In this document: one piece after another, positions 2,665 to 45,453 of the stretch
Position numbering within the stretch: position 1 is the first letter of the stretch
Layout of the letters: every line of letters starts with the position of its first letter
IMG/VR virus record: IMGVR_UViG_3300044710_000040
Coordinates: 1-45,453 of that record
Length of the DNA stretch: 45,453 nt
DNA from: a virus
Strand: one strand, 5' to 3'
The notes under the pieces: generated by a model
What the model saw: only the letters and a program-made list of their open reading frames with translations
The model's database searches: none
Told to the model about the DNA's origin: nothing
Translations under genes and position numbers: made by a program

Positions 2665-2762
2665 CATATTGCGCCCGGCCGCATTGGGTGCTAAGTTCCC
2701 TTACCCGCTATAGGGTTTTGGCGTCCTTTGGCCTCGCGAGGCTGCGATATACGGAGATTAAC

Positions 2763-5504: not shown

Positions 5505-6983
5505 GTGGGCGCAATCGACATACTAGGTTCGTTCCAAGATCCTCTTAACTTAGATCAAGGCGCGGGGAAACTTGTCAATGTGCGCGTCGTCCCGCGCGAA
5601 CAAAAAGAAGGCAAGCCCGGTAAAGCGCGTCTTGTCGGTGCGCCAGGGCTTACGCAGGTTTGCCAGCCTACAGCAGCACCTTGCATTACCATAGGGCAGG
5701 CGCTTGAAACGGTATGGACCGGGCACGCGGACGGCTCGATATACTACGGTGCGGAAACCGGGGCGCCGACGTTGGCGGGTTTTGTCGCCGTGAATGCGCA
5801 GCAGCCGGTTATGCGTTTTGCCGAAGATCGTACGGCGCTCGCCATTGCGTCTAACGCGAATACCAATAACCCGGCAGAATACGGCACAGGCTACACGGCA
5901 ACGCCGGCCGCTGGCGTCGTCAACGCCGATTTTGACGCCAGTATTAACTTCGATCCGTCCGCCGTTGCTGAATTAAATAACATAACGGTATGGTCCGCCG
6001 CGTCCAATTTCTACGCTAATCAAGACGCCAAAATGTACAGCTCACAACCGCTGGACCCGGCTAACGTACTACCGAACAGCTTTGCGACGAAGGAAGCCCG
6101 CGCCGATCGCGTTGTCGATTTAGCCGTGTCGGGGTTGGTCCTGTGGCCGCTTGGCTCCCGCTCGCTTGAACAATGGTACAATCCCGGCGGACAGACGGAT
6201 TTCGCATTCACCGCCTATCCGAACTCGCTTTATTCCGTGGGGCTAGCTGCGCGCCTATCTCTGGCAATTTTACGCGATATAATCATGTTCGTAGGAACCG
6301 ACCGCCGCATATGGATGTGTACGGGGCAGACTGGCCAGCCGATATCGCCGGCATGGATTGATTTGCTCTTGCAACAACTCACGACTACGCAACTGGCGAC
6401 GTTGACGGCATACGCGTACGGGCAGGGAGGCGGCGATTTCTATATATTGACGCTGCCCGGCCAGTGGACTTTGGAACTGTGTGGTTCGACTGGCGTCTGG
6501 TCTTACCGACAGTCGCCGGGTGGACGGCTAGATCATGCAGGTCGTTGCGCTACGGAATATGTTGGCGGCATTACGTATGTGGGGCTCGACACCGGCCAAG
6601 TCTGTACGGTGAACATAAACAGCAATTCGGAACCGGCTGGTGCTTTACAGCGCATGATAATAACGCCGTGGGTGGGCGGCAGTCCCGGCAGTTTAATTAA
6701 GGCGGGCTCGAGCGGGCAGGAAACGCGGCAGACGTACGATTCAATCGACGTAACATCGTCCATGGGACCGGCAGCCGGAAATTTTCAACTGGACTGGTCC
6801 GAAGATAGAGCTGTAACGTGGCGTGGCGCTCGGCAAATCACGATGCCGCAGCCCGGCACCCGGCGTGCAATTGGTCGCAGTTTTGGTACGGGACGGCGGC
6901 GCCAATTCCGTCTGCAGTACAGCGGTGTACAAGCGCCGTTCACAATTGACGAGATATTTGCGCAAATATCGGCAGGTACGTAA
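5505..6983 (+). CDS. P22 gp10-like tail plug / DNA stabilisation protein
   Basis: A 492-residue β-rich protein matching the phage stabilisation family of P22 gp10 (472 residues), the hexameric ring below gp4 that closes the tail and binds needle and tailspikes. Signs include the early LVGAPGL segment, the WPLGSRSLEQWYNPG region, a block of FYILTLPG / WTLELCGSTGVW strands and the C-terminal W-R-G-AR-I then GRSFGTGRRRQFRLQYSG, a hallmark ending. It starts at a GTG three bases after the previous stop. A second very small gene follows. Confidence 0.8.
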   Translation: MGAIDILGSFQDPLNLDQGAGKLVNVRVVPREQKEGKPGKARLVGAPGLTQVCQPTAAPCITIGQALETVWTGHADGSIYYGAETGAPTLAGFVAVNAQQPVMRFAEDRTALAIASNANTNNPAEYGTGYTATPAAGVVNADFDASINFDPSAVAELNNITVWSAASNFYANQDAKMYSSQPLDPANVLPNSFATKEARADRVVDLAVSGLVLWPLGSRSLEQWYNPGGQTDFAFTAYPNSLYSVGLAARLSLAILRDIIMFVGTDRRIWMCTGQTGQPISPAWIDLLLQQLTTTQLATLTAYAYGQGGGDFYILTLPGQWTLELCGSTGVWSYRQSPGGRLDHAGRCATEYVGGITYVGLDTGQVCTVNINSNSEPAGALQRMIITPWVGGSPGSLIKAGSSGQETRQTYDSIDVTSSMGPAAGNFQLDWSEDRAVTWRGARQITMPQPGTRRAIGRSFGTGRRRQFRLQYSGVQAPFTIDEIFAQISAGT

Positions 6984-14715: not shown

Positions 14716-15078
14716 TTATAGGGGGTATGGCAAAAAATGAACATCCTTCCCGGCGTCTGTGAAATAGTCGATTTCGTGTTTAATGCCCTTGCTGGTTTGC
14801 CAGCCCGTCATTTCGGCGACCAGTAGCGCCTCAGAAGCGTCCATCATTGCAGCATCGAATGGCAACCAAATATCGAGGTTTAACGGATCGATGTTGCCGT
14901 AAATTGCGAGCGGGTGCGTGTGAGCGATCGGGCTATAAACTTTAACGCCAAGCGCGAGCAATCTCGCAGCGAAGATCGACGCTTCGACAAACGCACAGTG
15001 GATGCCGCTGGGAAATTTGCTATACGGCGTTGCCAGATAACACAGCCGATACTTGGTCAGTTTTTCAATGCCGATCAT
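14716..15078 (-). CDS. DUF1937 protein (deoxyribosyltransferase-like fold)
   Basis: A 120-residue DUF1937 protein. The start LCYLATPYSKFP, the segment VYSPIAHTHPLA and the acidic LPFDAAMMDASEALLVAEM with a final GIKHEIDYF are diagnostic. The fold is related to nucleoside 2-deoxyribosyltransferases, so action on nucleotides or glycosidic bonds is plausible but unproven. It lies between the DUF2800 nuclease and the ssDNA-binding gene, one base after the nuclease stop. In this setting it may trim or remodel the nucleotide pool during replication. Confidence 0.8.
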   Translation of the reverse strand: MIGIEKLTKYRLCYLATPYSKFPSGIHCAFVEASIFAARLLALGVKVYSPIAHTHPLAIYGNIDPLNLDIWLPFDAAMMDASEALLVAEMTGWQTSKGIKHEIDYFTDAGKDVHFLPYPL

Positions 15079-15079
15079 A

Positions 15080-16060
15080 CTAATAACTCGCTTTCAACTG
15101 CCCTTCGGGCTTGTGGGCCCCGACAGCCGCATATTGTTTACCAGCCGGTCCCAGCTTTTCAGCCTGTGCCGGCGACACCGGCTTAATGCCGCGCGGGCCG
15201 AATTGTTCGTACAGCACCTTGGCAGCCTGCTCGGTGTCGTTCCAGGCGCGGAACGCGCGCCCCGGCTTCAGCACCGCCCCCGGCGTCGCGTAACCCAGCT
15301 TCAGCTTTGTAACCAACGCGTCGTCATAAACGGCCTTCACATCGTCAAGCGCACGGATGATTCGCAACAGCCGTACAAGTTCTTCACTGGTCAGACTCTC
15401 GGGAGCGCGCGACATGGCGCCCATGACGAAGCCGGCATCGATTGACATGGCGGGGCATTGCTGGAATGCGTTACACCAGCGGCACCACGGGCCGGGACGC
15501 GGGGCGCTGCGATCGGCAATCTGTCGCAGCACGCGGTCGCGGTGCGCAATCACTTCGCTGCGGTGCGCAACCCATTGCTTAAACGGAGTCTCGTCCAAGC
15601 CATTTGGTTGAAAAATAACAAGGCGCCACCATTCGGCGTCGCACTCGTTAAGTAATGCAGCGGCGTATGTCAGCATCTGCTTGTTGTGGTACGCGTCAAC
15701 ATCCCACTTGCCAAACTTATAATCCATGATAGTGGCGATGTACGGATGATCGTTAAATAGATCGGCCGTACCGCCGCATTCGTGCGCCAGTTCTACCGTT
15801 AACTCTGTGTACGTATCGCCGGGCTCCAGTTGCCGTACAAAATCAATGCCCAATGCGACGGCTTCCGCTTTACTGTCGTTGTCGTCAGGAAAAGCATTCT
15901 CCGCAACGGCAGCGGCTAGTAATTCGTGACCGCGCGTGCCTTCGTCCGCTGCAAGTTGCGTCTTCAATGGCTTTGGCGCTTCCGGTATGCTGTTGCGGGC
16001 GCTGAAAGAGCACTCTAGCCACGTCGCGGCGGACGATGGTGCGAATAGGGCGTGGGGCAT
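15080..16060 (-). CDS. DUF2800 Cas4/RecB-like nuclease with Fe-S cysteines
   Basis: A 326-residue nuclease of the PD-(D/E)xK superfamily. Visible elements are GTRGHELLA (H45), GGTADL (D100), DYK (D113, K115) and the Q128 helix. One cysteine near the start (C17) plus C193-x2-C196-x5-C202 reproduces the four-cysteine iron-sulfur arrangement of Cas4 and AddB. The last 75 residues (PGAVLK, W-x-D-x-E-x-AA, SPAQAEKLG, HKPEG) form a separate module found again alone at 28.5 kb. It likely resects DNA ends in phage recombination or replication. ATG 16060 has AAGG upstream; the longer TTG start is less likely. Confidence 0.85.
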   Translation of the reverse strand: MPHALFAPSSAATWLECSFSARNSIPEAPKPLKTQLAADEGTRGHELLAAAVAENAFPDDNDSKAEAVALGIDFVRQLEPGDTYTELTVELAHECGGTADLFNDHPYIATIMDYKFGKWDVDAYHNKQMLTYAAALLNECDAEWWRLVIFQPNGLDETPFKQWVAHRSEVIAHRDRVLRQIADRSAPRPGPWCRWCNAFQQCPAMSIDAGFVMGAMSRAPESLTSEELVRLLRIIRALDDVKAVYDDALVTKLKLGYATPGAVLKPGRAFRAWNDTEQAAKVLYEQFGPRGIKPVSPAQAEKLGPAGKQYAAVGAHKPEGQLKASY

Positions 16061-30660: not shown

Positions 30661-33600
30661 ATGTCTGACGCTATTACTAATCCCGGCAGCGTATTCGGCG
30701 GTGGCCTAGATACTCAATCGGGCTCGCCAGCATATAGCGGCGATGGCAGCGGCGCATTGCCGGCCGGCGGTTTGGATATGCCCACGGCAGCGCCGACAGC
30801 GCTTGCACCGCAAGACAGCGGGCCAACATTCGGTAGCTCGTTCGTCTCGCCGTTTCCGAATTACAAGCCGCTGGAAGATCCAAAAGCAACTGCGCTAGAC
30901 CAGTCGGCGAACCTGCTCGAACAGCGCGTCGATCGTACTAGTAAGATCGCGACGGCTAGCGGCTTTGGGGGTTTTCTTATGCAGATGTTTGCACCCGAAG
31001 CCGTGCAGGCGGCGCGCGACAACTTGCCAAAATTGACCGAACAACTGCAGGCTATCAAAACGCAAAAGCAGCAGCAAACCGACATCCAGAAAAGTGCGAC
31101 CAATTTTGGAATGCCGGCGTCCGCTCAAAACCCGTTCATGACGAATGACACGGTGGATAATTGGTTGCTCGACCAGTATAAGTCCGGCGATTTCAGTAAA
31201 GCCAAATATCTCCAGGCGCGCGGCAAGGGCGATTGGGTGCAGGATTTTGCCGGGACCGCTGTTGACGGTGCCGGGGCGCGGCTCGCCGCAGCCAGCACGG
31301 CCATCACAAAACTAAATGCTGCCGGCGACAATCAACCCGCGTACGCATCCGTGCTCCGCAGCCTAACGCCGGAAGAAAAACAGTCCATCACTTCGCTTGG
31401 ATTCCAAACGATACCGGAAAAAGTGTCGGACTGGCAGGCTGGAGTGCAACAACACGGCGCGGCGTTTACGCAAGCGCAGCAACTGCATTCTCAGGTTACG
31501 CAGAAACTTAACAACATCACGAATTTCGATGGCACGGCTCCAAAAGATGTGGAAGTCGCGTTGCAAGGCGATATTCGCGTTGGTAGCTCAAACGAGCCTG
31601 CTGGTTTTCCTGTCCGTACGCGGTCCATTGACGGGCAGACTGGCAATGTCGGCCCTAACGGTTCCGTACAGGTTGAAAAATACGGCCTCGCCCCGAAAGA
31701 CGGCGGCTGGAACGCAACGACGGCCGAACGCCTCGAAAAAAGCGATAAGATGTTTGCCGGTGACGATCAAAAAGGCGCCATCAATCAGTACAACATCGCA
31801 AATAAATTCAGAAACGAGGCGATGAACGACCAGATGTACAATTCATCGGCTGGTCTTGCGCTATTGAAAGACACGCTAGGCGCCGTCGGTCGTGACGTGG
31901 CCGAGAAATCGGCCGCCGCCGGCACCACAGGCTTGTCGCAGATGTTTGGAAAACAGCAGGGCGGTTTTGAAGGCTTCCTAAACCGTGCAACAAGCGAGCT
32001 GGGCGCGTACAAAAATTGGGTTGACGGTGGCCGGAAAGGCGACGCGCCGCGTATTTCAGATGAGACAAAGCGCGGCATGCAATTTATCGCGAACGAAAAT
32101 TACAAGTACGCACAAGAGCAGGCTACCGGGCGTCTCAGCGGCGCAATGCGCTATGCCGGGCAGATCGGCCGCCCGCTGGAAGACATACCGCTCGACGCGT
32201 CGCTGAAAGACAGCGTTGCGCAGTATCACGAGGAAGGCCGCGTTGACGCAATCAATGGCTGGCGATCATACCCCAGTGTCGTGCGCGGCAACCAGCGCAT
32301 ATTTTTCCCGCAGGGATCAAACGTAAACGGCGCTCAGCCGCCACGGCCCCCCTTGACACCCGTACAGCAGCCGGCGCAGAATACGAATGCACAGCCCCCA
32401 GCAGTGCAACCCGTACCGTCGCCGATTAACCCTCAAGCCCCTCAAACGCCGCCCGGCGGCGGTACGGGCCAGCCTTCCCAGCAACAACCAATCACGGTAG
32501 CCGGTCAGCAAGTCAACATGACGTTGCCGCCGGGCGCATCGCCTGCGTACGTCGCTTCGCTCCAGAATATTGAGACGCCCGGCAAAGCGAACCCGTGGGC
32601 GGCCACCACTGCGAACAGCAGCGCGTCGGGTGCGTTCCAGGCTATTGACCAAACATGGAACGAAAATAAGCCGGCCGGCGCTCCAGCGCGGGCAAAAGAT
32701 GCGACGCCGCAGCAACAAGCGGATTTTCTGTCAAATCTGACAACGAAGAACGCCGCGACGCTGACGAATCTTAAGCTGCCCGTGAACGATACCACGCTGT
32801 ACATGGCGCATAATGTTGGCGCAAATGGTGCGGCTTCGTTGCTGAGCACGTCGCCGACCGCAGACGCCCGTACGGTTGTTGGCGAGCAAGCCGCGAAGAA
32901 CAATCCGCTATTTTTCAGAGGGCGTCCGACCGTCGCTACGGTGTTGCAGCGCTACGCTGACGCTACGGGAGGCGCAGCGTTGCAGCCGCCGACAAGTCAG
33001 CCCCCGAACTTAACGCCGATGCAGCGCGAAGCAATGGCGCGGCGCGGAGTGGACACTTCGGCACCAGGACCGACGCCTGAGCAGCAAGCCGGGCAGTGGG
33101 CGCAGACGGGCCAGGACTTAGCCGGCGTCGCGCCTGCGGCTCTTTCGACGGCTGGCGCGGCTGGGGGCGGTCTTGTTGGCGGTCCTGTCGGCGCCGTTGT
33201 TGGTGGCGCGGCCGGCGGCTACGTCGGCAACGCCGCGAAGAATTACATGCGCGGGAAGCCGCAAAACCAAGTCGAGAATGTCGAGCAGGCCGCGCTTGGC
33301 GGTTTGCTCAGTGTTGCGGGGCCGGCGCGGTTGGCGACAAAAGCGGGTCTTGGGGTGCTTGCGGGCCAGACAGCCGGGAGTGCCGCTATCGAAGCAGGTA
33401 CGGCTGGGGCGGAAGGTGGCACTCCGGCCGACATGGTTGATGCCGGCTTGCGTGGCGGTGCTGAAGGTCTTGGCGGCAGACTGTTCGGGCATGCGCTCGG
33501 TATGGGGCTGAATAAAGTTTACAGCTTGTTCACAACTGACGCACAGAAGACCGTACAAGCCGCTGCGAAAGATCTGCACGAAGCAAATCAAACGCTGGCT

Positions 33601-34689
33601 ACGACGGAGCCGAAATTACCGGGTGACGGCGCTGGCGATAATCCGAAATACGTAGCTGCGCAAACTGCGAAGGACAAAGCCGAAGCTACGATCAAGGATA
33701 TGCTGCCGAACGCGAAGCCGGATGAAGTAGCGTACGCGCATAAAGTCACATCGGAAGGCGACGTGCCGCGCGGCGAAGCCGTAGTCATGGGCCGTGCGCG
33801 AAGTGCGGCAAATGAAACATCGCAGGGTTATAATCAACTTCGCCAGGATGTGCAGAACACTGGCGTTGGCGTCCCAAAAGCAAATCAACCGACGCCGGAC
33901 GGCCCGCTTGCGCAGATACGCACGTCGGAAAATCCGACTGGCACGGTTGAAGCTAAGTTCGTGCCCGATGCGGAGCACGCGGAAATGTTGGTTAAGGCTC
34001 CGGCCGATAACTGGAGTCAGAAATGGCAGCAACTGCAAAATGCTGGTTCTGAATTAATACAAAAGCGCATGGCGTTTTTGCAAAATGCCGATAAGCCGAG
34101 CGCGGATGCGATGGATAATATTTTTCAGGGCGTACGCAATCAACAGGTAGCGGCGGCAAAGTACGTGTTTGGCCCTGCTAGAGCTCCACAAGTTATCGAC
34201 CGTCTGGAGCAACTAGATAAAAACTGGGCGACGATCATGACAGGTTCGGGCGGCATGAACTACGCCCGGATGCAGCAACTGTTAGAAGGCGGTAATTCGC
34301 CAGCGCGCCGCGCGATGGAGACTGCTTTTAAGTCGTTTGCGGGTGACGACCCGGGCGCCATGCGTGCGTTTAACGCAATGAAAGTGGGGGCGCCTGCCGA
34401 CTGGAAATTGATGCTGCCAGTCATCGCGGGAGAGCTATCGGCGAATGCCGCAGGCGTCCCAACGCTCGGCGCTCTCTCCGCTACGGCTGCGGCAGGTATC
34501 GGCGGCCAGCGCATATACAGGGTAATGCGTCAGTACATGAACGCTAAGGTGCTTGGGCAGCCGGTACAGTTCAAGGATTTCTTCATGAAGGACTTGCAAG
34601 ACGACGGCACTTTGAAAGCCATCACCGGCAACGTAGCGCAGCGCGGTGCCGTACAGGGTGACGTGCTCCGCTCGGGGGCAGTGCAATGA
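30661..34689 (+). CDS. Giant ejection protein with transglycosylase-like domain
   Basis: A 1,342-residue virion protein. Residues 1-620 are Gly/Pro-rich at first, then long helices. A Pro/Gln linker leads to a lysozyme-like transglycosylase module at about 625-765: NIETPGKANPW with candidate catalytic E638, ASGAFQAIDQTW, MAHNVGANGAASLL and NPLFFRGRPTVATVLQRYA. Residues 831-861 are a glycine zipper (GGGLVGGPVGAVVGGAAGGY), followed by more membrane-prone helices, then long helical domains. This fits P22 gp16-type or T7 gp16-type proteins that open peptidoglycan and form a channel for DNA. GGAG precedes the ATG. No other wall-degrading enzyme is seen. Confidence 0.8.
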   Translation: MSDAITNPGSVFGGGLDTQSGSPAYSGDGSGALPAGGLDMPTAAPTALAPQDSGPTFGSSFVSPFPNYKPLEDPKATALDQSANLLEQRVDRTSKIATASGFGGFLMQMFAPEAVQAARDNLPKLTEQLQAIKTQKQQQTDIQKSATNFGMPASAQNPFMTNDTVDNWLLDQYKSGDFSKAKYLQARGKGDWVQDFAGTAVDGAGARLAAASTAITKLNAAGDNQPAYASVLRSLTPEEKQSITSLGFQTIPEKVSDWQAGVQQHGAAFTQAQQLHSQVTQKLNNITNFDGTAPKDVEVALQGDIRVGSSNEPAGFPVRTRSIDGQTGNVGPNGSVQVEKYGLAPKDGGWNATTAERLEKSDKMFAGDDQKGAINQYNIANKFRNEAMNDQMYNSSAGLALLKDTLGAVGRDVAEKSAAAGTTGLSQMFGKQQGGFEGFLNRATSELGAYKNWVDGGRKGDAPRISDETKRGMQFIANENYKYAQEQATGRLSGAMRYAGQIGRPLEDIPLDASLKDSVAQYHEEGRVDAINGWRSYPSVVRGNQRIFFPQGSNVNGAQPPRPPLTPVQQPAQNTNAQPPAVQPVPSPINPQAPQTPPGGGTGQPSQQQPITVAGQQVNMTLPPGASPAYVASLQNIETPGKANPWAATTANSSASGAFQAIDQTWNENKPAGAPARAKDATPQQQADFLSNLTTKNAATLTNLKLPVNDTTLYMAHNVGANGAASLLSTSPTADARTVVGEQAAKNNPLFFRGRPTVATVLQRYADATGGAALQPPTSQPPNLTPMQREAMARRGVDTSAPGPTPEQQAGQWAQTGQDLAGVAPAALSTAGAAGGGLVGGPVGAVVGGAAGGYVGNAAKNYMRGKPQNQVENVEQAALGGLLSVAGPARLATKAGLGVLAGQTAGSAAIEAGTAGAEGGTPADMVDAGLRGGAEGLGGRLFGHALGMGLNKVYSLFTTDAQKTVQAAAKDLHEANQTLATTEPKLPGDGAGDNPKYVAAQTAKDKAEATIKDMLPNAKPDEVAYAHKVTSEGDVPRGEAVVMGRARSAANETSQGYNQLRQDVQNTGVGVPKANQPTPDGPLAQIRTSENPTGTVEAKFVPDAEHAEMLVKAPADNWSQKWQQLQNAGSELIQKRMAFLQNADKPSADAMDNIFQGVRNQQVAAAKYVFGPARAPQVIDRLEQLDKNWATIMTGSGGMNYARMQQLLEGGNSPARRAMETAFKSFAGDDPGAMRAFNAMKVGAPADWKLMLPVIAGELSANAAGVPTLGALSATAAAGIGGQRIYRVMRQYMNAKVLGQPVQFKDFFMKDLQDDGTLKAITGNVAQRGAVQGDVLRSGAVQ

Positions 34690-35284: not shown

Positions 35285-35372
35285 TGGGCTTTGGTAGTTC
35301 GCGTTTCAAAAAGTCTGGTATTTCGTTGTAGTCCGGCTGCGTTGATGGTTTTTCCCAAGGCATGAGGGTCAT
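35205..35372 (-). CDS. Small Pro-rich ORF coupled to the GIY-YIG gene
   Basis: A 55-residue frame starting MTLMPWEKPSTQPDYNEIPD. Its ATG overlaps the upstream TGA (ATGA). The last 80 bases overlap the converging plus gene. Disordered, with FLKRELPKPT; carries an MPWE element at the front. Unknown. Confidence 0.4.
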   Translation of the reverse strand: MTLMPWEKPSTQPDYNEIPDFLKRELPKPTNHEDNLRDSTPNWLPPWAPTNSSHS

Positions 35373-35806
35373 TTTCTGCGCCTCTTTAATTCTTGGTATA
35401 CCGCCGCGCGTATTAAGTCTGATTGACCTTCGCCACCTCGCAGCGCGGTATTAATTTCATGGGCGAGATACGCGGGCACGCGGAAAGACAGCATCGTACT
35501 TGTGCAGTCAGTTATTTTTGAGGGCAGTTTTTTAACACTTAAGACTGCCTCTTTCACAGCTTCTATCGCGAGTGCGGCACTAACATTAAACCACTCTCCC
35601 GAAGCTCTGTACTCATGCAGCAACCAGTGTGCGTGGTCTTCTACGCGCCCCGCTGTGTGGCTTTGTACGCCTACTGAAAAGTGTAAAGTCAAAGGTATCG
35701 GGCTTCCTGTCTGTAACTGCCCGAACCTAGCTGAGACGCTTTTCGCCAATCCTATTTTTAAGTGGCCTGTTTTCGGGCCTATCACGTACACGTACTTATC
35801 TGGCAT
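35369..35806 (-). CDS. GIY-YIG (MUG113/T5orf172-like) nuclease with RHH tail
   Basis: A 145-residue fusion. Residues 4-85 form a MUG113-type GIY-YIG domain: KYVYVIG, LKIGLAKS, the R27 helix, the catalytic-type E56 in RVEDHAHWLL and the GEWFNV strand. Residues 103-145 are a ribbon-helix-helix unit (TMLSFRVPAYLAHEINTALR, SDLIRAAVYQEL). The RHH would target the nuclease to chosen sites or let it repress itself. GAGG precedes ATG 35806. It is a lone minus-strand island between plus-strand structural genes. Confidence 0.75.
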   Translation of the reverse strand: MPDKYVYVIGPKTGHLKIGLAKSVSARFGQLQTGSPIPLTLHFSVGVQSHTAGRVEDHAHWLLHEYRASGEWFNVSAALAIEAVKEAVLSVKKLPSKITDCTSTMLSFRVPAYLAHEINTALRGGEGQSDLIRAAVYQELKRRRK

Positions 35807-35870
35807 GACATTTTCCCTCAAAGTCATACGCACCATAGAGTAATACAAAAACGAATACAACCCCCTATTT

Positions 35871-36715: not shown

Positions 36716-37261
36716 ATGAAACTTATCGCCAATATCCGCGCTGCGTTGGCTGCACTGCTTTTGATGGCGCCGACTGTCGCGCTTGCGCAGACTGTTGTAC
36801 AGGTCCCGACAGTCATAGTCTCGAATACCGTCGTTGATTTGGGCAACGGCCCGACTGAAATTCGTACGCTTCAGGGCAGCTTGGGGCTGTTCACGTCCCA
36901 AGGATCTGGCGTCGGCAGCACGTCGGGTTCGTCCACCACACTCACGCTGACGGCGACTGCGGCGGCCGATCCGCCGTGTGTAGGGTGCATCATTTCCGGC
37001 ACCAGCATTACGTCGGGCACGACCGTCACGGCGTTCAACGGTACGACTGGCATCACCCTTTCGGCAGCCATGACCGTCGCGGCGTCCACCCCGCTCGCGT
37101 GGGGTCAAGCGTGTCCGGCCGCGCCGCCTACGGCGCCGCTCGCGCTGGTTCAAGCCGCAGTCGGTTCCGATCTTCCGATGTACACGCAGGCTCGCGTTTG
37201 CGCGTACGGCAATCGCGGTCCTGGCGGGCTGATTGCTCAATACCCCATCGGAGCGCACTAA
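36716..37261 (+). CDS. Secreted β-rich protein, paralogue 1
   Basis: A 181-residue protein with a clear Sec signal peptide: MKL.ANIR, hydrophobic ALAALLLMAPTV, cleavage after ALA-Q. The mature part has a module DLGNGPTEIRTLQGS, LFTSQGSGVGSTSGSSTTLT, SGTSITSGTTVTAFNGTTGI and a closing MYTQARVCAYG. The same module starts the 637-residue protein at 39297. GAAGGA precedes the ATG. Two Cys pairs could form disulfides in the periplasm. Fibre-like, but the signal implies export; role unknown. Confidence 0.7.
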   Translation: MKLIANIRAALAALLLMAPTVALAQTVVQVPTVIVSNTVVDLGNGPTEIRTLQGSLGLFTSQGSGVGSTSGSSTTLTLTATAAADPPCVGCIISGTSITSGTTVTAFNGTTGITLSAAMTVAASTPLAWGQACPAAPPTAPLALVQAAVGSDLPMYTQARVCAYGNRGPGGLIAQYPIGAH

Positions 37262-37284
37262 TCACCCAATGAGGGGCGCATCCG

Positions 37285-37596
37285 ATGGTTGCCAATCCTA
37301 TAAAGACCATACCGCGTAGCTATCAGTCCTGGGTCAATCTTGCCGCCACGCCAGCAACCGACTTTGAGCTGGACGCAGGCAGGTACGGGCTTACGATAGC
37401 GGCTGGTGGCTTTACCAGCTACCAATTGCAAAGGTTGCTGCCTGACGGAGCAACGTACGTGCCTGCCATGCCGGTGGCGGCTGCAGCCGGCTACACAGAA
37501 ATGCAGTTGCCGGCGGGGCGCTACAGCATGGTTGTTGTCGGCGCAACGGCGTTTACCGGCGTGATCGAAAAGATCGATACGGGGCGCGCGCGATGA
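37285..37596 (+). CDS. Small β-rich structural-type protein
   Basis: A 103-residue protein without a signal peptide (MVANPIKTIPRSYQSWVNLA) with repeated strands (GRYGLTIAAGGFTSYQLQRL, GRYSMVVVGATAFTG). Resembles small virion or fibre-associated proteins. ATGA-coupled to the next secreted protein. Confidence 0.65.
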   Translation: MVANPIKTIPRSYQSWVNLAATPATDFELDAGRYGLTIAAGGFTSYQLQRLLPDGATYVPAMPVAAAAGYTEMQLPAGRYSMVVVGATAFTGVIEKIDTGRAR

Positions 37597-38363
37597 AGAA
37601 ACTCTTATTCATCGTTTTGTTGGCGTTCAGTGTCGCGCCTGCGGATGCTCAACAGCAATTGCAAGTCCTGATCGTGTCGACTTGCGGTACGCCGCCTGTG
37701 TCGTACGTTGCTGGCACGTACGGCATTCTTACTATGGATACGACGGGGAAGCTGTGCGACGGCGGCGGGGGCGGGGGCGGCGGTACTCAAAATGTCAACT
37801 TGACGCAAATTCTTGGTGCCGCGCCGAGTGCGACGAATCAACTCTGGGTGTCCCCCGCAACGGGTGCGACGTTCCCGGTCAGTGGCACATTCTGGCCCTA
37901 CACACTCGGGCAGCAACTCGCCGCTGCTTCGGTTCCGGTAGTGCTGACGGCTGCGCAACTTACGACGCTTACGCCGCCGACATCAACAACGCCCATCGCC
38001 GGTACCACGGGCGGCGCGACGCCCGGCAATGAAATTGCGCCCAGTAACACGACTGGCGTCAACCTCAAAGGCACTCCGGGTACGGTGTACGGCGTACAGC
38101 TCGGCGGCATTGGTTCGGCGCCGGCCTATCTGAAGCTTTATAACAAAGCGACTGCGCCGACGTGCGGAACAGATACGCCGGTCAAGCGCCTGATTATTCC
38201 ATCGGCTCCAACAGCGGCAAACGGTGCGGGATCAAACATTTCATTTTCAGTCGGCATTAATTTTTCCCTTGGTATTGGTTATTGCGTCACGACCGGCATC
38301 ACGGATGCCGACACGACGGCGCCGGCTGCAAACACATTCCTCATCAACGTCGATTGGAATTAA
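37593..38363 (+). CDS. Secreted fibre-like protein with poly-Gly hinge
   Basis: A 256-residue protein. Signal peptide MKKLLFIVLLAFSVAPADAQ is followed by a short β part, a run of eight Gly, and a C-terminal phage module: YGVQLGGIGSAPAYLKLYNK, APTCGTDTPVKRLIIP, SVGINFSLGIGYCVTTG, found in phage tail or decoration proteins. The poly-Gly hinge joins two units. The presence of a signal on a virion-type module is unusual. Confidence 0.7.
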   Translation: MKKLLFIVLLAFSVAPADAQQQLQVLIVSTCGTPPVSYVAGTYGILTMDTTGKLCDGGGGGGGGTQNVNLTQILGAAPSATNQLWVSPATGATFPVSGTFWPYTLGQQLAAASVPVVLTAAQLTTLTPPTSTTPIAGTTGGATPGNEIAPSNTTGVNLKGTPGTVYGVQLGGIGSAPAYLKLYNKATAPTCGTDTPVKRLIIPSAPTAANGAGSNISFSVGINFSLGIGYCVTTGITDADTTAPAANTFLINVDWN

Positions 38364-38367
38364 GCCA

Positions 38368-39297
38368 ATGCGATGCCTGATCGCCGTCGCACTGTTTTGC
38401 GTCGGGCTGTTTTGCCTCGCGCGAGAGCCGCGCGCGCAACTTTCAATGACGGGTGCTGGTGCGGGTGGTTTTGGTGTCGGCGCTGCATCCTATTCCGGTC
38501 CCGGCGACATCACCTCTGGTGCCATCGCATTCTATAGCTGTGGTCGAGCCTACAATGCCGCATATGCTGCGGCACTCAATGCAGCCTGCGACGTAGTGGA
38601 CACCGCAACCGGGCTTGTGACTGGCACATTTAATTTTCTCTCGACTGGATTTGTAAGCCCGAATCAACTTTCCGGTGTTGGGCAAGCGTGTCATACTGCA
38701 TGCAGCGTCACAAAGATGTACGACCAGACCGGCAACGGCAATCACGTCGTCCAGGCGACGCTCGCCAACATGCCGGCGCTGACGTTCAGCGCGCAGAACG
38801 GATTGCCATGCGCTGCTGGGACGAATAATGCTGCAACGAGGCTAGTGACCGCAGGAAATATCTCACAGTCGGCTCCATATTCCTACACGGCAGTTGCCGA
38901 ACGCTCAGGTAGTTTCACAACGGTACAAAGAATAATGCGTAACGGTCTTATAAATGCTGCCAGTCTAAATTACACTGGCAGCGCCAACACAGTGGCGGTG
39001 AACAACGGAACGAATGTTCAGTTGACAGTGAGCGACAGCGCGCCGCACGCATTTTTGGTTGTGTCCAGTGCAACGGCGCCACTGTTCGCGGTAGATAGCA
39101 GCGCGAATACAAGCACATCTACAAACGGCACTACAGCGTTGTTGTCCACTCAAGCCGTCATGGGTAATAGTAACGGTACAGGTGGTATTCTGGCTGGTTT
39201 CGTCTGCGAAGCCGGCATCTGGCCATCCGATCTCAACTCATCTTATCAAGCCATGCTCGCCAATATGCGCAGCACGACCAATGGGTGGAACTTCTGA
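38368..39297 (+). CDS. Secreted lectin/glucanase-fold-like protein
   Basis: A 309-residue protein with signal peptide MRCLIAVALFCVGLFCLARE then RAQ. The mature part shows CGRAYNAAYAAALNAACDVV, CSVTKMYDQTGNGNHVVQA, PALTF and a final EAGIWPSDLNSSYQAML, the pattern of concanavalin/LamG-like and arabinofuranosidase-type β-sandwiches seen in phage fibres that bind sugars. Six or more Cys suggest disulfides. ATG 38368 follows the previous gene; the upstream longer frame is a shadow. Confidence 0.7.
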   Translation: MRCLIAVALFCVGLFCLAREPRAQLSMTGAGAGGFGVGAASYSGPGDITSGAIAFYSCGRAYNAAYAAALNAACDVVDTATGLVTGTFNFLSTGFVSPNQLSGVGQACHTACSVTKMYDQTGNGNHVVQATLANMPALTFSAQNGLPCAAGTNNAATRLVTAGNISQSAPYSYTAVAERSGSFTTVQRIMRNGLINAASLNYTGSANTVAVNNGTNVQLTVSDSAPHAFLVVSSATAPLFAVDSSANTSTSTNGTTALLSTQAVMGNSNGTGGILAGFVCEAGIWPSDLNSSYQAMLANMRSTTNGWNF

Positions 39298-41210
39298 TGC
39301 GCAGATTTCTACTCGCCTTATCGTTTCTGCTCTGTACGGCGTTTCACGCGCACGCACAGAACGCCATCACACTGCCGATCGCTGCAAATGCAGTCGCCGA
39401 TTTAGGTAACGGTCCGATCAAGGTCCGCATGATTGCGGGCAACGCGTCAATTTTCACATCCCAAGGTTCCGGCATCGGCAGCACGTCAGGCTCATCTACG
39501 ACTTTGACGCTGACAGCGACGCCAGCAATACCACCGATTGTTGGCGGCCTGATTTCCGGTGCGGGAATCACGTCGGGAACAACGGTTGCTGCGTACAACG
39601 GTACAACGGGCATAACGCTTTCCGCTGCGATGACTGTAGCTGGCGGTACGACGGTTTCGTGGAGCGCCGCGTGCCCATCAACGCCGCCCAGCAATGTAAT
39701 CCAAGCATCGCCGCAAGCTGACTACTATATGATGTACACACAAGCGCGCGTGTGTGCAGTTTCGCCGGGCGGCCCGGTCAATACGCTTTTGATCGAACCG
39801 ATTTTTTACGATCAGACAACGTCGGGCGGTGGGGGCGGCACGCCAGTAATACAGGCGGGGCAGGCGTTGGGCAACCCCACTGGAACTTCTGCGATACCGA
39901 CCGGGACTTTTTTAGATCAATTGTTTTTCGGTACTGACGGCAATCAGTTTCAAATCTTGCCGCGTCCTACGATTACGACGCATTCAGTTGCTGCTTTGCA
40001 GCCGACGCAAGCGAACACGATAGCCACATGGGACCTTTTCCCCAAGGGTTCGCCCAGCCCATCTGGCGAAGGTTTTATAACTTGGCATGACGATTGCGAC
40101 GCCGACTTAATTGCAAATGCAAGCGCTCCGGTCGGCTGCGCACGTTTCGGCGCCGACACCACACTAGGCTATTCTGCTTTTGGCTCTGTGGCTTACAACG
40201 GCGGAACGCTGCGGCCTCTTTGTTTGTTTTATGGAATAATTACGAACGTCGTGAACTGCGTTGCGACCTACGCAACCGGATGGACTTTTAACGGCGGCAC
40301 GGCCGCAGTTAATCTAAATGCCGCTCCGATTCCATCGGCTTTACTGGGCGGCGATGTTGCTTTCGCCGCTGCAAATGTGGACGGCCAAGGTACGCGATAT
40401 ATCGCTATCGCAACTCCTAACGGCGGCACTGACAGCCCGTCTTTCACCGGTATGTACGCCAACGGCACGCTGGCCGCGCCTACCGCGATCGTCAACGGCA
40501 ATAATCTCGTCTCCTTCGGTGGCGGCGGTGCGTACTGCGCAACCTGTGTTTCTGGCGGCCCAGGATGGGTATTTGGCCGCGGTAGTTTCCAGGTTTACGC
40601 AGATGCTAATTGGAGCAGTACGTCGGAGCCGACACGAGACTGTGAGTACACAACTGCAATAAATGCCGTAGTTCAAGCTCCGTGGTTTTGCGTTTTTAAT
40701 GACGGCGGCACTTATTTTGGTACGTTCTCAGGTACCACGCCGCCTGTGGGAGCAGATAAAGGACCGTCTACGGTCAACTTGGCTGCCGGCGGCGGTTACT
40801 ACTTAAACGGAAATCCGGCGTCAACGACGTTGGCTGTCATCGCCGCAGGAGTGAATTTCAATGCAGTCGGGGACACTCCGCTCTCAGTTAGTTTGCCAGC
40901 TTGGGCTTCGCGCTACCTCATAAACTCTATTCGCATTATTGGAGCGACGGGATCGCTTACGGCATCACAGGTTGGGGTATTTACCGCGACTAGCGGCGGC
41001 GGCACGCAGATCGTCACGTCGGGATCGGCAGTGACGGTGTCAACCGCATCGGACGGCACTGCTAATAATGCACAAAATTTAACTATTAATAATAATAACC
41101 TGGCTACGTATACAGTCGCCGGTTTCCCCACTTTATACTTCAGAGTTACTCAAACAGAAGGCAACAGTGCATTTGCTGATGTAGAACTTATCTTAACACC
41201 GACTCCGTGA
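39297..41210 (+). CDS. Large secreted fibre-like protein, paralogue 2
   Basis: A 637-residue protein with signal peptide MRRFLLALSFLLCTAFHAHA-Q. Residues about 38-150 repeat the module of the 36716 protein (LFTSQ-like segment, SGTTVAAYNGTTGITLSAAM, MYTQARVCA). A poly-Gly hinge follows, then a large β domain with paired Cys (WHDDCDADLI, YCATCV) and a C-terminal β sandwich (LINSIRIIGATG, LYFRVTQTEGNSAFADVELI) typical of fibre tips. It shares TGATG with the preceding gene. It may be a receptor-binding or surface protein; the signal peptide makes periplasmic or surface display likely. Confidence 0.7.
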   Translation: MRRFLLALSFLLCTAFHAHAQNAITLPIAANAVADLGNGPIKVRMIAGNASIFTSQGSGIGSTSGSSTTLTLTATPAIPPIVGGLISGAGITSGTTVAAYNGTTGITLSAAMTVAGGTTVSWSAACPSTPPSNVIQASPQADYYMMYTQARVCAVSPGGPVNTLLIEPIFYDQTTSGGGGGTPVIQAGQALGNPTGTSAIPTGTFLDQLFFGTDGNQFQILPRPTITTHSVAALQPTQANTIATWDLFPKGSPSPSGEGFITWHDDCDADLIANASAPVGCARFGADTTLGYSAFGSVAYNGGTLRPLCLFYGIITNVVNCVATYATGWTFNGGTAAVNLNAAPIPSALLGGDVAFAAANVDGQGTRYIAIATPNGGTDSPSFTGMYANGTLAAPTAIVNGNNLVSFGGGGAYCATCVSGGPGWVFGRGSFQVYADANWSSTSEPTRDCEYTTAINAVVQAPWFCVFNDGGTYFGTFSGTTPPVGADKGPSTVNLAAGGGYYLNGNPASTTLAVIAAGVNFNAVGDTPLSVSLPAWASRYLINSIRIIGATGSLTASQVGVFTATSGGGTQIVTSGSAVTVSTASDGTANNAQNLTINNNNLATYTVAGFPTLYFRVTQTEGNSAFADVELILTPTP

Positions 41211-41215
41211 TTCTT

Positions 41216-41320
41216 ATGCGCCCCCATGGCGACATCACCTTGGCACTCATCATGATCGCATTGTTCGTCTACGCGGCGGTAATTCTGACCAGAAACGTGC
41301 TCAGAAAAGGCACCCAATGA
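41216..41320 (+). CDS. Small one-span membrane protein (holin candidate)
   Basis: A 34-residue ORF, MRPHGD then span ITLALIMIALFVYAAVILTR and a basic end NVLRKGTQ. ATGA overlap with the next membrane protein. The pair could form a lysis unit. Too short for a sure holin call. Confidence 0.5.
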   Translation: MRPHGDITLALIMIALFVYAAVILTRNVLRKGTQ

Positions 41321-41604
41321 TTATCGACGCGGGGGCAGTAGCAGCCGGGGTTGCCGCCTTGAATCTCGTACTCACAATCGGGGGCGGTGGTTTCTTCGCC
41401 GGAAAACTGACGGGCAAAATCCAGCGTATTGAAACCGACGTGAAGGAAACCAAAGGTTTGCTTATCACGTCTGCAGTCGAGGCCGATCGGCTACGACGTG
41501 CGGAAGACGACATACAAAATGTCGAAGAAGATATTCGGAATTTGCGCAAAGGCGTGGGCTATATAAATGACGCGAATGCCAGGGGCATTAATCGGGAATA
41601 CTAG
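41317..41604 (+). CDS. Membrane-anchored coiled-coil protein (holin-like)
   Basis: A 95-residue protein with an N-terminal span (AGVAALNLVLTIGGGGFFAG) and a long charged coil (IQRIETDVKETKGLL, DDIQNVEEDIRNLRKG). This layout is like XhlA-type lysis proteins or spanin-like partners. With no endolysin nearby, the lysis role is inferred only from form and position after the fibre genes. Confidence 0.6.
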   Translation: MIIDAGAVAAGVAALNLVLTIGGGGFFAGKLTGKIQRIETDVKETKGLLITSAVEADRLRRAEDDIQNVEEDIRNLRKGVGYINDANARGINREY

Positions 41605-41605
41605 A

Positions 41606-41719
41606 TTGAAGCGCTACCGGCGGCTGGCGGAACGGCACCGACTGCTTGCCAAGGTGCATACGACGTTAGCGAAGTTGTACGAGCGAAAAGCTAGAAAAGC
41701 CGGGAAACAAGTGGTATAG
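41606..41719 (+). CDS. Small basic helical protein
   Basis: A 37-residue ORF from TTG 41606 with GGGA upstream: KRYRRLAERHRLLAKVHTTL, then AKLYERKARKAG. One amphipathic, highly basic helix. Starts 1 base after the previous stop. Unknown. Confidence 0.45.
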   Translation: MKRYRRLAERHRLLAKVHTTLAKLYERKARKAGKQVV

Positions 41720-41720
41720 T
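41712..41720 (+). promoter_or_regulatory. Extended -10 promoter
   Basis: TGG then TATAGT (41715-41720) is a 5 of 6 match with the extended TGn. No good -35. The start would be near 41727, just before the CAGGAG of the next gene. Confidence 0.5.
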
Positions 41721-41750
41721 AATTAAGAGGGAAACACAGGAGAACGAACT

Positions 41751-42179
41751 ATGAGCGACCTGAAGAACGACCTCCAGCATATTTTCGACGTGCTGAAGGG
41801 CATCGAAACCCGCGCTCGCGGGCTGAAAAACCAGAACCTTGCGGACATCGCAGCGTCGGCGCACGGCCGCGTGAAGCAGCTTATCGACCATCCCGATACC
41901 GAGCTGGTAGACGAACGAAAGGACCAAGCGCACGAAGGCAATCCGCTATACGTCGCACCCGCGACCAAGGACGAAGCGGTTGCAAAAATGCGAGCCGAAG
42001 GCGACGCGGACCCGGAAAATACGGCCCGGATGAATTGGCCGCATCTGTTCGGTCTGACGGGCTCGGATCATCCCGATACGCAGCTTCCGCACCCGAGCGC
42101 GCCGTTCCCGCACGCGATGCCGCCCAGCCCGCCACGTGTCCCGCTCGGTGCCGACGGGTACCCGCGTCAGGACCGCTAG
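41751..42179 (+). CDS. Hypothetical late protein
   Basis: A 142-residue protein. The first half is helical (LKNDLQHIFDVLKGIETRAR, DIAASAHGRVKQLIDH), the rest Pro/His-rich. CAGGAG precedes the ATG, and a promoter and terminal hairpin frame it as a single-gene unit. High expression is likely. Unknown. Confidence 0.75.
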   Translation: MSDLKNDLQHIFDVLKGIETRARGLKNQNLADIAASAHGRVKQLIDHPDTELVDERKDQAHEGNPLYVAPATKDEAVAKMRAEGDADPENTARMNWPHLFGLTGSDHPDTQLPHPSAPFPHAMPPSPPRVPLGADGYPRQDR

Positions 42180-42188
42180 AAACCCGAG

Positions 42189-42217
42189 TAGGCCCCTGCC
42201 AGCGTGGCGGGGGCCTA
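42189..42217 (+). terminator. GC-rich hairpin after single-gene unit
   Basis: A 12-bp stem (42189-42200 with 42206-42217, one G-U) closes a 5-base loop just after the stop. No T run follows, so termination may be partial or factor-assisted. Confidence 0.55.
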
Positions 42218-42235
42218 TGAAAGCCGGGAACCGAG

Positions 42236-42263
42236 TGATATGATGCTTTGAACGGCGTCATAC
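42236..42263 (+). promoter_or_regulatory. Late promoter with GTCATAC box
   Basis: TGA then TATGAT (42236-42244, 5 of 6 in the -10) is followed after 12 bases by GTCATAC (42257-42263). Spacing equals that at the portal promoter. It begins the fibre-like cluster to the right. Confidence 0.55.
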
Positions 42264-42281
42264 AAACCGGACAGAGGCACC

Positions 42282-42539
42282 ATGGGCACTCGATTTCGCG
42301 GTCTAAAAACTGGCTTCAATAAGACCGGCAATAACGATTGCGTACCCAATGAAATGGGGCCGCCGGCTACGAAATTCACCGGGCGCGGTGGTGTGCCGGA
42401 AGGGCAGTTGAAGCACTATCCCGGCGCGGTGGCGGACACCGGCATGGGCAACCGCCGGCTGGCAAAGTCCAATCACGGCGACGGTGGCGGCTCCAGTACG
42501 CGATATTCCGGCAATACGGCTTTCGACAAAGGCCGGTAG
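42282..42539 (+). CDS. Small Gly-rich protein
   Basis: An 85-residue basic Gly/Asn-rich protein (MGTRFRGLKTGFNKTGNNDC). Looks disordered. First gene after the GTCATAC promoter. Unknown. Confidence 0.6.
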   Translation: MGTRFRGLKTGFNKTGNNDCVPNEMGPPATKFTGRGGVPEGQLKHYPGAVADTGMGNRRLAKSNHGDGGGSSTRYSGNTAFDKGR

Positions 42540-42551
42540 GGCTGTACGGAT

Positions 42552-42968
42552 ATGTTCTATCGGCCGGGCGGCAGCGCAACGCGAATCAACAATCAGAACG
42601 ATACCGTGTACGCCGATTTCGTCGGCGGCGCGACCGGGTGGCTGCCGGTAAGTAAGGGCAATACCATTTCTGTTAATATAGCTCGCGCTTCGTTGGCGTT
42701 TGTTTCCGCCGCGTCGAGCACCATCACGCCGTCGCCGATTGCGCCCGAAGTCCAAGTCATCATGGAAATGAAGATGTATGGCGGCGACCCGGATGCTTCC
42801 GCGCGTCCAATCGATCAATGGCAGAATATCGTCGTTGCCACGTCCCGCCGTGCTCATCGTGAAGGTTGGGCGCGCTTGCGTATTGTTAATATCAACAATG
42901 CCGAAAGTACGGGCGTTGTTATGGATATGCAGATTGCCCGTACAGGCGATGTTGGTGCATCCACATGA
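42552..42968 (+). CDS. Structural-type β protein
   Basis: A 138-residue protein (MFYRPGGSATRINNQNDTVY) with many strands (PEVQVIMEMKMYGG, WARLRIVNINNAESTGVVMD). ATGA-coupled to the first of two duplicated genes. Probably virion; unknown role. Confidence 0.65.
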   Translation: MFYRPGGSATRINNQNDTVYADFVGGATGWLPVSKGNTISVNIARASLAFVSAASSTITPSPIAPEVQVIMEMKMYGGDPDASARPIDQWQNIVVATSRRAHREGWARLRIVNINNAESTGVVMDMQIARTGDVGAST

Positions 42969-43594
42969 GCGGTTTCGATCAAGGAACTGCGCAAGGCGGC
43001 ATTTTTGCCCAAACAAAGCAGTTTGGCTCGATCCTTCGCGGTTCCGGGCCGCCCGTGCCGGGGGCCGGCGTTGTCGGTGATTTATACATTGACGTACAGA
43101 CATGGTTTTTGTACGAAAAACGCAGCGCGGAAGGCACCGACCCGTGGGGCCACTATTTGTTTGCCGTTCCGGCGCAGTACCAATCCGGTTTGAATTGGTT
43201 TAGTTCGTCGCTGCCGACGAACAATTTTGGAGCGAACGGCGATTATTGCTTGCTTTGGGCTGGCTTCAATAACTACGGACTTCAACCGTCTTTCTGTGGC
43301 CCGGATGTCAACGGCTACTGGCCCGAAAGCGGTGACGGCTCGGATCTGTTGCTTGATCTGACAAACGCAGGCTACACGATTCCTGCCGGTCTGTCTGACG
43401 AAGGGGCACTAGTTCCGTTCAGCAATTCGTGGCAGCTCATCGTTGTCGGCGTCGATACGGAATATCTCTTGTCCATTCCGGTGTCGCAGCTTCCGAACTC
43501 ACCCGTTATTGAGCGCGGCTTGCAATCAGCGCCGGTTGTTGTGGCTGTCGCTTTGAATCCATTATATTCTGCCGAAGACGAGCATGCCGTATGA
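42965..43594 (+). CDS. Tandem paralogue 1, fibre-associated
   Basis: A 209-residue protein starting MSGFDQGTAQGGIFAQTKQF, with GDLYIDVQTWFLYEKR, WGHYLFAVPAQYQ, NGDYCLLWAGFNNYGLQPS. It shares both ends with the next gene, which lacks a 65-residue insert present here (from GYWPESGDGSD to about residue 190). The GD.Y.D..TWFLY.KR segment resembles fibre-tip motifs. The common ending is AVALNPLYSAEDEH. Confidence 0.7.
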   Translation: MSGFDQGTAQGGIFAQTKQFGSILRGSGPPVPGAGVVGDLYIDVQTWFLYEKRSAEGTDPWGHYLFAVPAQYQSGLNWFSSSLPTNNFGANGDYCLLWAGFNNYGLQPSFCGPDVNGYWPESGDGSDLLLDLTNAGYTIPAGLSDEGALVPFSNSWQLIVVGVDTEYLLSIPVSQLPNSPVIERGLQSAPVVVAVALNPLYSAEDEHAV

Positions 43595-44019
43595 GTGGCT
43601 TTGACAATGGCACAATTCAGGGCGGCGTGTTTGCGCAGACGAAGCAATTCGGTCCGGTGCTGCGTGGTACGGGCGAGCCTGTGCCGTCTGCCGGCGTCGT
43701 TGGCGATGTGTACGTAGACACGCAGACTTGGTTTCTGTACGCGAAGCGGTCCAATGACAAGACGAGTTCGTGGGGCAACTACCTGTTCGCCGTGCCTGCG
43801 ACTTACCAAGCCGCGTTGAGTTGGTTCAGTTCTGCGCAACCAACAAACGATCTGGGGTCGAATGGGGATTACTGCTTGATGTGGGGCGGCTATCCGAATT
43901 ATGGATTGCAGCCATCCATCCTGGGGCCGAAGGCGGCCGGTGTATGGCCTGCCAATCCTGCGGCAGTGGCGGTTGCGCTTAATCCACTCTATACCGCTGA
44001 AAACGAGCACAACATATGA
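43591..44019 (+). CDS. Tandem paralogue 2, fibre-associated
   Basis: A 142-residue protein (MSGFDNGTIQGGVFAQTKQF) with GDVYVDTQTWFLYAKR, NGDYCLMWGGYPNYGLQPS and the ending AVALNPLYTAENEH. It is the short version of the previous gene and is ATGA-coupled on both sides. The two may form mixed oligomers or specialise after duplication. Confidence 0.7.
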   Translation: MSGFDNGTIQGGVFAQTKQFGPVLRGTGEPVPSAGVVGDVYVDTQTWFLYAKRSNDKTSSWGNYLFAVPATYQAALSWFSSAQPTNDLGSNGDYCLMWGGYPNYGLQPSILGPKAAGVWPANPAAVAVALNPLYTAENEHNI

Positions 44020-44627
44020 GCTACAATTCAGCGACAGATTTCATTGGATTGTTACGGCTCGTTGGGAGCGCCGTGCGTTCGGAAAGAATGCCGGGGTTGG
44101 ATTACGTTGTTGCCGCGCTGGCTCGAGCTGGCATGTTTGCGCTCTCGGTTGGGCAGACGGCGCCGACTGTAAATCAGGCGAGCACGCTTTGGTTTCAGCC
44201 CGCCATCCCGTCATGGACGGCGGAAGGTACACTGTACATCTGGAATCCGGTAGCAGGGCAGTATCAAGTTGCGACGCCTGCGTTGTGGCAAGCATTCTTG
44301 TCGCCGTCCGGTTCGGTTTTTCAATCGCTGCCGAACGCGAACAACGTTATTAACCCCGGCGTATCACTTGCTGCCATACAACGCGCCGCGCCGGCTAACA
44401 CAGCCGTACAGCTCCCCTCGATTGCAGCGCAGTATCTTACGCAAAAGGATATTGTACTTACCGATTTTTCAACGGGTGTTGCTAACCATGAAATTTTAGT
44501 TTCGCCGGTTGGCGGCGCTACGATCATGCAGCAAGCAACATGGAATTTGCAATCCACCGCCGATTACTTGGCGCGTGTGCGTCTCCGTCCGTCCCCCGAT
44601 CTTAACGCTTGGATACTGATACCATGA
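44016..44627 (+). CDS. Virion-type protein
   Basis: A 203-residue protein (MSYNSATDFIGLLRLVGSAV) with MPGLDYVVAALARAGMFALS, then VGQTAPTVNQASTLWFQPAI and GTLYIWNPVAGQYQ, a combination found in phage fibre or baseplate-like structural proteins. ATGA-coupled to both neighbours. Role unknown. Confidence 0.65.
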   Translation: MSYNSATDFIGLLRLVGSAVRSERMPGLDYVVAALARAGMFALSVGQTAPTVNQASTLWFQPAIPSWTAEGTLYIWNPVAGQYQVATPALWQAFLSPSGSVFQSLPNANNVINPGVSLAAIQRAAPANTAVQLPSIAAQYLTQKDIVLTDFSTGVANHEILVSPVGGATIMQQATWNLQSTADYLARVRLRPSPDLNAWILIP

Positions 44628-45453
44628 AAATGCTCCGTACCGCTGCCGCTCTTGCGTTTTTGCTGGTTTGCGCGCCTGCGCTGGCGCAGCAGACGGCAAT
44701 CCACTCCGTGCCGATCGGCAAGGGCGCTGGCAACACCGGATTCAATGCCGCAGTACCCAGCACGGCAGGACAGCCGCTTGTCAGTAACGGCCCTTCCGCC
44801 GATCCAGGCTTTGGCACGATTGCCAACAGCGGCTTTACGCCCGGTGCTGCCAACACGGTGAAGGGGAGCCTGAACGGTACGACCGTAACGGATCTTCCGC
44901 TGCCGAACTGTACGGGCGTCAATCAAGCGCTGAAATACGTATCCGGCACCGGAGTTAATTGCAGTGCTGTTAGTACGACAGGCGGCTACGATATGCCGAT
45001 CAATCTCGGTTTGTCGGCTGTTGCTTCCGGTAACGCGCTTACCATCACGTTGACGCAAGCGAACGGCGCTGCGCCTAGCAGCGGCAGTCCGGTCATAGTG
45101 CCGTTCCGGTCTACTGTAGGAACGACAGGCACGATTACGTTTGCTTCCATCACTGCTACGCAGTCCATCACCATCCCCAACGGTGCGACGCTCGGCACTT
45201 CAAATGGCGTGCCGTTTCGTGTGTGGATTTTTCTAGAGTACAACGCGGGCGTTCCTGAGCTGGCGGTGGCGACGTGCAGTAACCAGACGACTATTTTTCC
45301 ATGTGCGGCTTGGGAACATACGCTACCAACCACTACAACCATTGGTGGGTCTTCTAACACTGGCGGTACTTTGTACGCCACAGCCGGCGTTGCTGCCGAC
45401 GCCGTACGGATAATCGGGTTTTGCAGTTTCGGAAGCGGACAGACTGTTGCCGG
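44624..45453 (+). CDS. Secreted fibre-like protein, cut by window end
   Basis: At least 276 residues; no stop before the edge. The signal peptide is MKMLRTAAALAFLLVCAPAL then AQQ. The mature part starts with a fibre-like repeat (GAGNTGFNAAVPSTAGQPLV, SNGPSADPGFGTI, VKGSLNGTTVTDLPLPNC) followed by a β domain. It is the fifth protein in this cluster with such a signal. ATG 44624 overlaps the previous TGA. Confidence 0.7.
   Translation, partial: MKMLRTAAALAFLLVCAPALAQQTAIHSVPIGKGAGNTGFNAAVPSTAGQPLVSNGPSADPGFGTIANSGFTPGAANTVKGSLNGTTVTDLPLPNCTGVNQALKYVSGTGVNCSAVSTTGGYDMPINLGLSAVASGNALTITLTQANGAAPSSGSPVIVPFRSTVGTTGTITFASITATQSITIPNGATLGTSNGVPFRVWIFLEYNAGVPELAVATCSNQTTIFPCAAWEHTLPTTTTIGGSSNTGGTLYATAGVAADAVRIIGFCSFGSGQTVA

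Follow-up and report, generated by a model that had tools for sequence, protein, structure and literature searches.

Signal-peptide-bearing fibre proteins of a P22-like soil phage: very likely export and a possible late step in virion completion

The array and its surroundings

The window, i.e., the whole stretch of DNA analysed here, is an IMG/VR virus record of 45,453 bases, and 3′ of a transglycosylase gene within it stands an array of five genes whose products carry signal peptides (SP1 to SP5 below). The lineage with this very likely exported fibre array is a soil phage, and our guess, from the style of its proteins, is that the host is an alphaproteobacterial soil bacterium. The array and its context are as follows.

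30661–34689, plus strand: transglycosylase-domain virion-type protein, 1342 aa, 5′ of the array
36716–37261, plus strand: SP1, 181 aa; signal 36716–36787; a stand-alone mature N-domain
37285–37596, plus strand: protein of 103 aa with neither signal nor cysteine; overlaps the SP2 start (ATGA)
37593–38363, plus strand: SP2, 256 aa; signal 37593–37649; C-terminal ‘YLKLYNK’ domain
38368–39297, plus strand: SP3, 309 aa; signal about 38368–38436, the weakest of the five
39297–41210, plus strand: SP4, 637 aa; signal 39297–39356; conserved N-domain of about 175 aa
42965–43594, plus strand: fibre-like protein, 209 aa, without signal
43591–44019, plus strand: paralog of the 42965 product, 142 aa, without signal
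44016–44627, plus strand: SP5 partner, 203 aa, no cysteine and no signal; overlaps SP5 by 4 nt
44624–45453, plus strand: SP5, running off the window end; signal 44624–44686

Elsewhere in the window Hc3 (5505–6983) is a P22-like stabilisation protein (PHROG 578, E 3e-37), and an ejection-type protein, a DNA polymerase and helicases are also encoded. From conservation and reading alone, 2688–3695, with a conserved 310-aa product, is the candidate major capsid gene, and 683–2650 on the minus strand is the candidate portal gene; adjoining the latter is a GroES-like co-chaperonin (6–608, minus strand; PHROG 3188, E 8e-5). A tRNA scan gave zero tRNA genes. A small minus-strand gene between two conserved genes (35369–35860, start KYVYVIGPKTGHLKIGLA) has a product that, by eye, resembles a GIY-YIG-type protein; in a longer relative, L003, the gene in this slot is unrelated to it and has paired Cys motifs, and the slot gives the impression of a place where mobile genes of the endonuclease type settle.

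In L003 the genes that come after the array encode a peptidoglycan-binding endolysin, two small membrane proteins and, next, the terminase. Another relative, G003, is 58,225 nt long with an identical direct repeat of 5,548 nt at both ends, from which a genome of about 52.7 kb, apparently complete, can be deduced. The contig IMGVR_UViG_3300043252_000011 (98,428 nt) is nearly the same phage as a 51,936-nt contig, its record being almost twice as long. Relatives have in addition, on the opposite strand between terminase and portal, a signal-bearing candidate outer-membrane barrel of ~220–270 aa (L003:20988-21794 and G003 14819-15628, both minus strand, and also L039, L041, L043, L046-L048, L051, L052 and L063). 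The L003 version has no Pfam or PHROG match, and the window ends where that gene would stand. Such a barrel could likewise alter the surface of the host.

Signal peptides and cysteines

The preliminary description had placed Sec-type signal peptides on the products starting at 36716, 37593, 38368, 39297 and 44624, and inspection of all five N-termini bears this out. With a slash for the predicted cleavage they read MKLIANIRAALAALLLMAPTVALA/Q (SP1), MKKLLFIVLLAFSVAPADA/Q (SP2), MRCLIAVALFCVGLFCLAREPRA/Q (SP3), MRRFLLALSFLLCTAFHAHA/Q (SP4) and MKMLRTAAALAFLLVCAPALA/Q (SP5). A basic n-region, a hydrophobic core and small residues at −3 and −1 are found in the five, with only the −3 residue of SP3 unusual. 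The A-x-A/Q site ascribed to them is clear in four, but SP3 reads P-R-A/Q or C-L-A/R and its score, 7.0 against a threshold of 8.9, is the weakest; the different proteins that occupy the SP3 slot in relatives have signals scoring 10.2 and 9.4. These calls come from a simple heuristic of our own, calibrated only on seven control phages, in which it called 3 of 164 annotated genes, compared with five within ~9 kb here. Two of the three control calls are lysis genes, for an endolysin and a spanin, and the third is the gene of a fibre-like protein in Acetobacter phage phiAX1. The lipobox pattern ([LVI][ASTVI][GAS]C) was searched for at the N-termini of the scored window proteins, and by direct reading in SP1, and was absent.

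Are the signals maintained? When homologs were retrieved with the mature part as query, the signal being left out, a signal peptide was present at all 36 homologous loci (some of them near-duplicates), and it ended where the conserved mature sequence starts. Thirty-five score above 8.5 and one scores 8.06. Mean identity is 49.6% in the signals versus 65.1% in the adjoining 45 mature residues, the signal being the more divergent in 144/153 pairs, with charge, hydrophobic core and cleavage site preserved, and to drift faster than the mature start yet stay signal-like is what is expected of real signals. The array recurs in relatives with varying protein numbers and bodies, and in G003 every recognised fibre-like protein above about 250 aa has a signal.

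The paired cysteines reported earlier also stand: of 32 array proteins, an 80% non-redundant set, 29 have an even number of mature cysteines, for which the binomial value of 1.3e-6 treats as independent proteins that are not. SP1, SP2, SP3 and SP4 have 4, 4, 6 and 10 mature cysteines, respectively, the full SP5 ortholog has 8, and the four of SP1 are conserved in all its orthologs. Density is 2.0 per 100 aa in the array versus 0.5 in the signal-free late genes of the window. The ‘YLKLYNK’ domain of SP2 is common to non-exported proteins of other phages, and its Cys pair is present in 2/2 exported copies but in 0/14 non-exported ones at the same columns. Similarly, the homolog of the SP5 body in Pseudomonas phage AH02, the ‘major tropism determinant’ (gp15), which is free of both signal and cysteine, has none where SP5 carries several. 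Parity, density, the SP2 pair and the AH02 contrast together point to folding in an oxidising compartment. High cysteine content does not always mean export, however, as a spike in the relative L065 has 16 cysteines and no signal. Taking signal conservation, the control rate, cysteine parity and the SP2 pair together, the sequences make export of these receptor-binding-type fibres very likely, and both signal conservation and parity lend good support to the periplasm, the proposed destination.

Fibre bodies and a non-exported partner

For none of the five did Pfam give a family above cutoff, and in tblastn against isolated phages SP2 and SP5 had a single match each, while SP1, SP3 and SP4 had none. 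The mature N-domain of SP1 is the same domain as the N-terminus of SP4, for which AlphaFold gave no usable fold (pLDDT 35). In SP2, SP4 and SP5 the N-terminal parts are fixed and the C-terminal parts swapped, that of SP4 being unrelated from relative to relative; a conserved N-terminal anchor with a variable C-terminus is the layout of receptor-binding fibres, and such an identity is suggested by these comparisons. The SP3 body matches a PHROG of virion structural proteins, and other proteins in its slot have an arabinofuranosidase/ConA-like family match below cutoff. Among further array members there are matches to beta-helix, tail-spike, tail-fibre, BNR and collagen families, several of which fall short of the curated cutoffs.

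The near-identical full ortholog of SP5 (L003:15332-16588, 419 aa) has a putative TNF/C1q-like knob at its C-terminus. The SP5 model has a mean pLDDT of 47.6, with the C-terminal 120 residues near 75, and that domain, of moderate confidence, matches TNF/C1q-like knobs in the PDB, among them the BC2L-C lectin, the PLTL lectin, Bdellovibrio Bd2734 and the tail needles of Sf6 and HS1. Fold evidence for the array comes from this one partial model, whose matches to trimeric knobs suggest that the array proteins may be trimeric. Folds of receptor-binding C-termini are thus represented by the modelled knob, and by Collar, pectate-lyase and beta-helix matches in array members or partners.

At all 22 loci examined an overlapping homolog of the 44016 gene lies directly upstream of the SP5-family gene, and in relatives the N-domain of the 44016 product, about 98 aa, also forms the start of Collar fibres and of pectate-lyase spikes: in L063 it is joined to a Pfam Collar domain (59 bits) and in L065 to a pectate-lyase-like spike (38.5 bits, above cutoff). 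At those two loci no SP5 gene follows the fibre or spike bearing the N-domain. We read 44016, from this distribution, as a probable virion anchor to which the tip is fused in some phages and beside which an exported tip is encoded in others. That the anchor-fused L065 spike shares its body with the SP5 spike was considered and rejected, homology between them being undetectable, and the shared N-domain is thus the whole basis of the argument for exchange.

The idea that phage structural proteins normally lack signals holds for the seven control phages, but signal-bearing fibres do occur in other phage lineages. Similar arrays stand between capsid and tail-tube genes in phages whose capsid protein is of another kind (PHROG 212). 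One of these, L033, a phage unrelated to that of the window, has six signal-bearing array proteins; among them is a Pfam Collar tail fibre that has 8 Cys and begins with a Sec signal. Twin-arginine-like signals (SRRSFLLG and TRRNALLG), which would permit export of already folded proteins, are carried by the array proteins L021:10392-13022 and L033:7894-8613 of such unrelated phages. In phiAX1, a phage obtained by induction from its host, two signal-bearing fibre-type genes stand in a row, and AH02 has one, weaker.

Proposed docking at lysis and its alternatives

What might exported fibres do? Of the roles suggested earlier, coating of virions during lysis fits best in view of the fibre- and tailspike-type bodies and the strict coupling of SP5 to a protein with a tail-fibre N-domain, with receptor decoy or exclusion a less likely role. 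A lytic P22-like podovirus would make the five late, from its tail/lysis operon, as receptor-binding fibres or spikes, which Sec would transport across the inner membrane and signal peptidase I would cleave. In the periplasm they would fold and their disulfide bonds form, and the exchangeable C-terminal domains would bind surface glycans or other receptors. Virions of tailed phages assemble in the cytoplasm, and docking must therefore wait for lysis, which would mix virions and periplasm; the conserved N-domains would then dock the fibres on virions, directly or through non-exported anchors such as 44016. We know of no tailed phage in which docking is delayed until lysis. P22 tailspikes can reportedly be attached to finished particles in vitro, which makes a late docking step plausible. 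What the sequences themselves bear out is signal conservation, cysteine parity, bodies of receptor-binding type and the strict coupling to the partner; actual export, trimer formation, docking on the virion and its timing we infer. That receptor-binding fibres are exported, fold in the periplasm and are docked on virions at lysis we hold to be evenly balanced between belief and doubt; that a tailed phage Sec-exports disulfide-bonded spikes and completes its virions only at lysis, on non-exported anchors, is a tentative proposal against which we lean slightly.

Next after docking, and the main rival to it, comes receptor masking, in which exported lectin-like fibres would stay off the virion and bind the envelope or debris of the producing cell, blocking superinfection and sparing progeny from loss on debris. 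Export parts fibres from assembling virions, the bodies are binding domains, relatives also encode the signal-bearing candidate barrel, and a phage lipoprotein, Llp of T5, has just this role (PMC12980165). Llp and the array proteins would be alike in being phage-encoded and sent out to the infected cell's envelope. Llp is small and lipidated whereas the array proteins are large, non-lipidated, multi-slot fibres of 181–637 aa, in which its combination of lipobox and small size is not found. Neither a lipobox at the cleavage sites nor any known path through the outer membrane was seen, the strict coupling to an anchor of tail-fibre type is left unexplained, and the late position of the genes, with large C-terminal domains that are swapped and occupy several slots, would fit host-range proteins better than exclusion proteins, so that masking seems to us unlikely though deserving serious consideration. 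Less probable again are soluble adhesins or depolymerases, released with the lysate to act on the extracellular polysaccharide or biofilm of neighbours and not parts of the virion: beta-helix, BNR and ConA-like/arabinofuranosidase-like matches among array members are in keeping with this, but most enzyme-family matches fall below curated cutoffs, making enzyme identity putative, and the conserved N-domains and the partner would have no explanation. That the hydrophobic N-termini are structural segments of virion proteins, e.g., a membrane-inserting tip, and not export signals, is very improbable: they do sit on tail-fibre-type proteins and their cleavage is predicted only, but the signals outpace mature sequence in drift while keeping charge, core and cleavage site, parity indicates an oxidising compartment, and twin-arginine-like signals take the same role in other phages. 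Single signal-bearing outer-membrane genes occur among phage tail genes, e.g., lambda lom, and this is the precedent for regarding the array as ordinary accessory genes for the host, lysogenic conversion adhesins like Lom; we give that reading equally little credence as one and the same position retains four or more slots and pattern-based scans of 84,980 bacterial and archaeal genomes found no relative of the terminase or the SP5 family, so that no lysogens were seen.

The nearest described design is that of the mosaic adhesive trimer (MAT) proteins of Bdellovibrio, which are encoded by the predator and have been shown on the bacterial surface (PMC10769870). They are phage-tail-fibre-like, with a signal peptide, a conserved beta-rich N-domain of ~130 aa and exchangeable adhesive tips, and one of them is the Bd2734 found among the SP5 knob matches; the likeness is of design and C-terminal fold, and the array, in contrast, belongs to the tail/lysis operon of a phage and not to a predatory bacterium. 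With the fibres, tailspikes and needle knobs of podoviruses (P22, Sf6, HS1; Pfam Collar; AH02 gp15) the array has body domains and modular layout in common, and the SP5 knob, as modelled, resembles the needle knobs of Sf6 and HS1, but the known podovirus fibres and spikes are without signal peptides. The podovirus protein gp40 of Xanthomonas phage PBR31 has an N-terminal signal peptide, resembles tail-associated hydrolases and adjoins lysis genes (PMC10975493). It is, though, one esterase proposed to help lysis, whereas the array comprises multiple fibres. Tail-type proteins of a streptococcal prophage, PblA and PblB, are said to act as bacterial-surface adhesins while having no signal peptide, reaching the surface through lysis-related permeabilisation, unlike the signal-carrying array proteins. 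No description of a set of tail fibres with signal peptides was found in the open-licence literature.

Tailed phages are taught as completing their particles in the cytoplasm, and fibres that were exported and then docked would depart from that. If several phage lineages do export a conserved set of disulfide-type receptor-binding proteins, then either virion assembly ends with a periplasmic step or phages have a new means of altering the host surface late in infection. Either outcome bears on the prediction of host range from phage genomes, since fibres with signals may be dismissed there as genes of the host.
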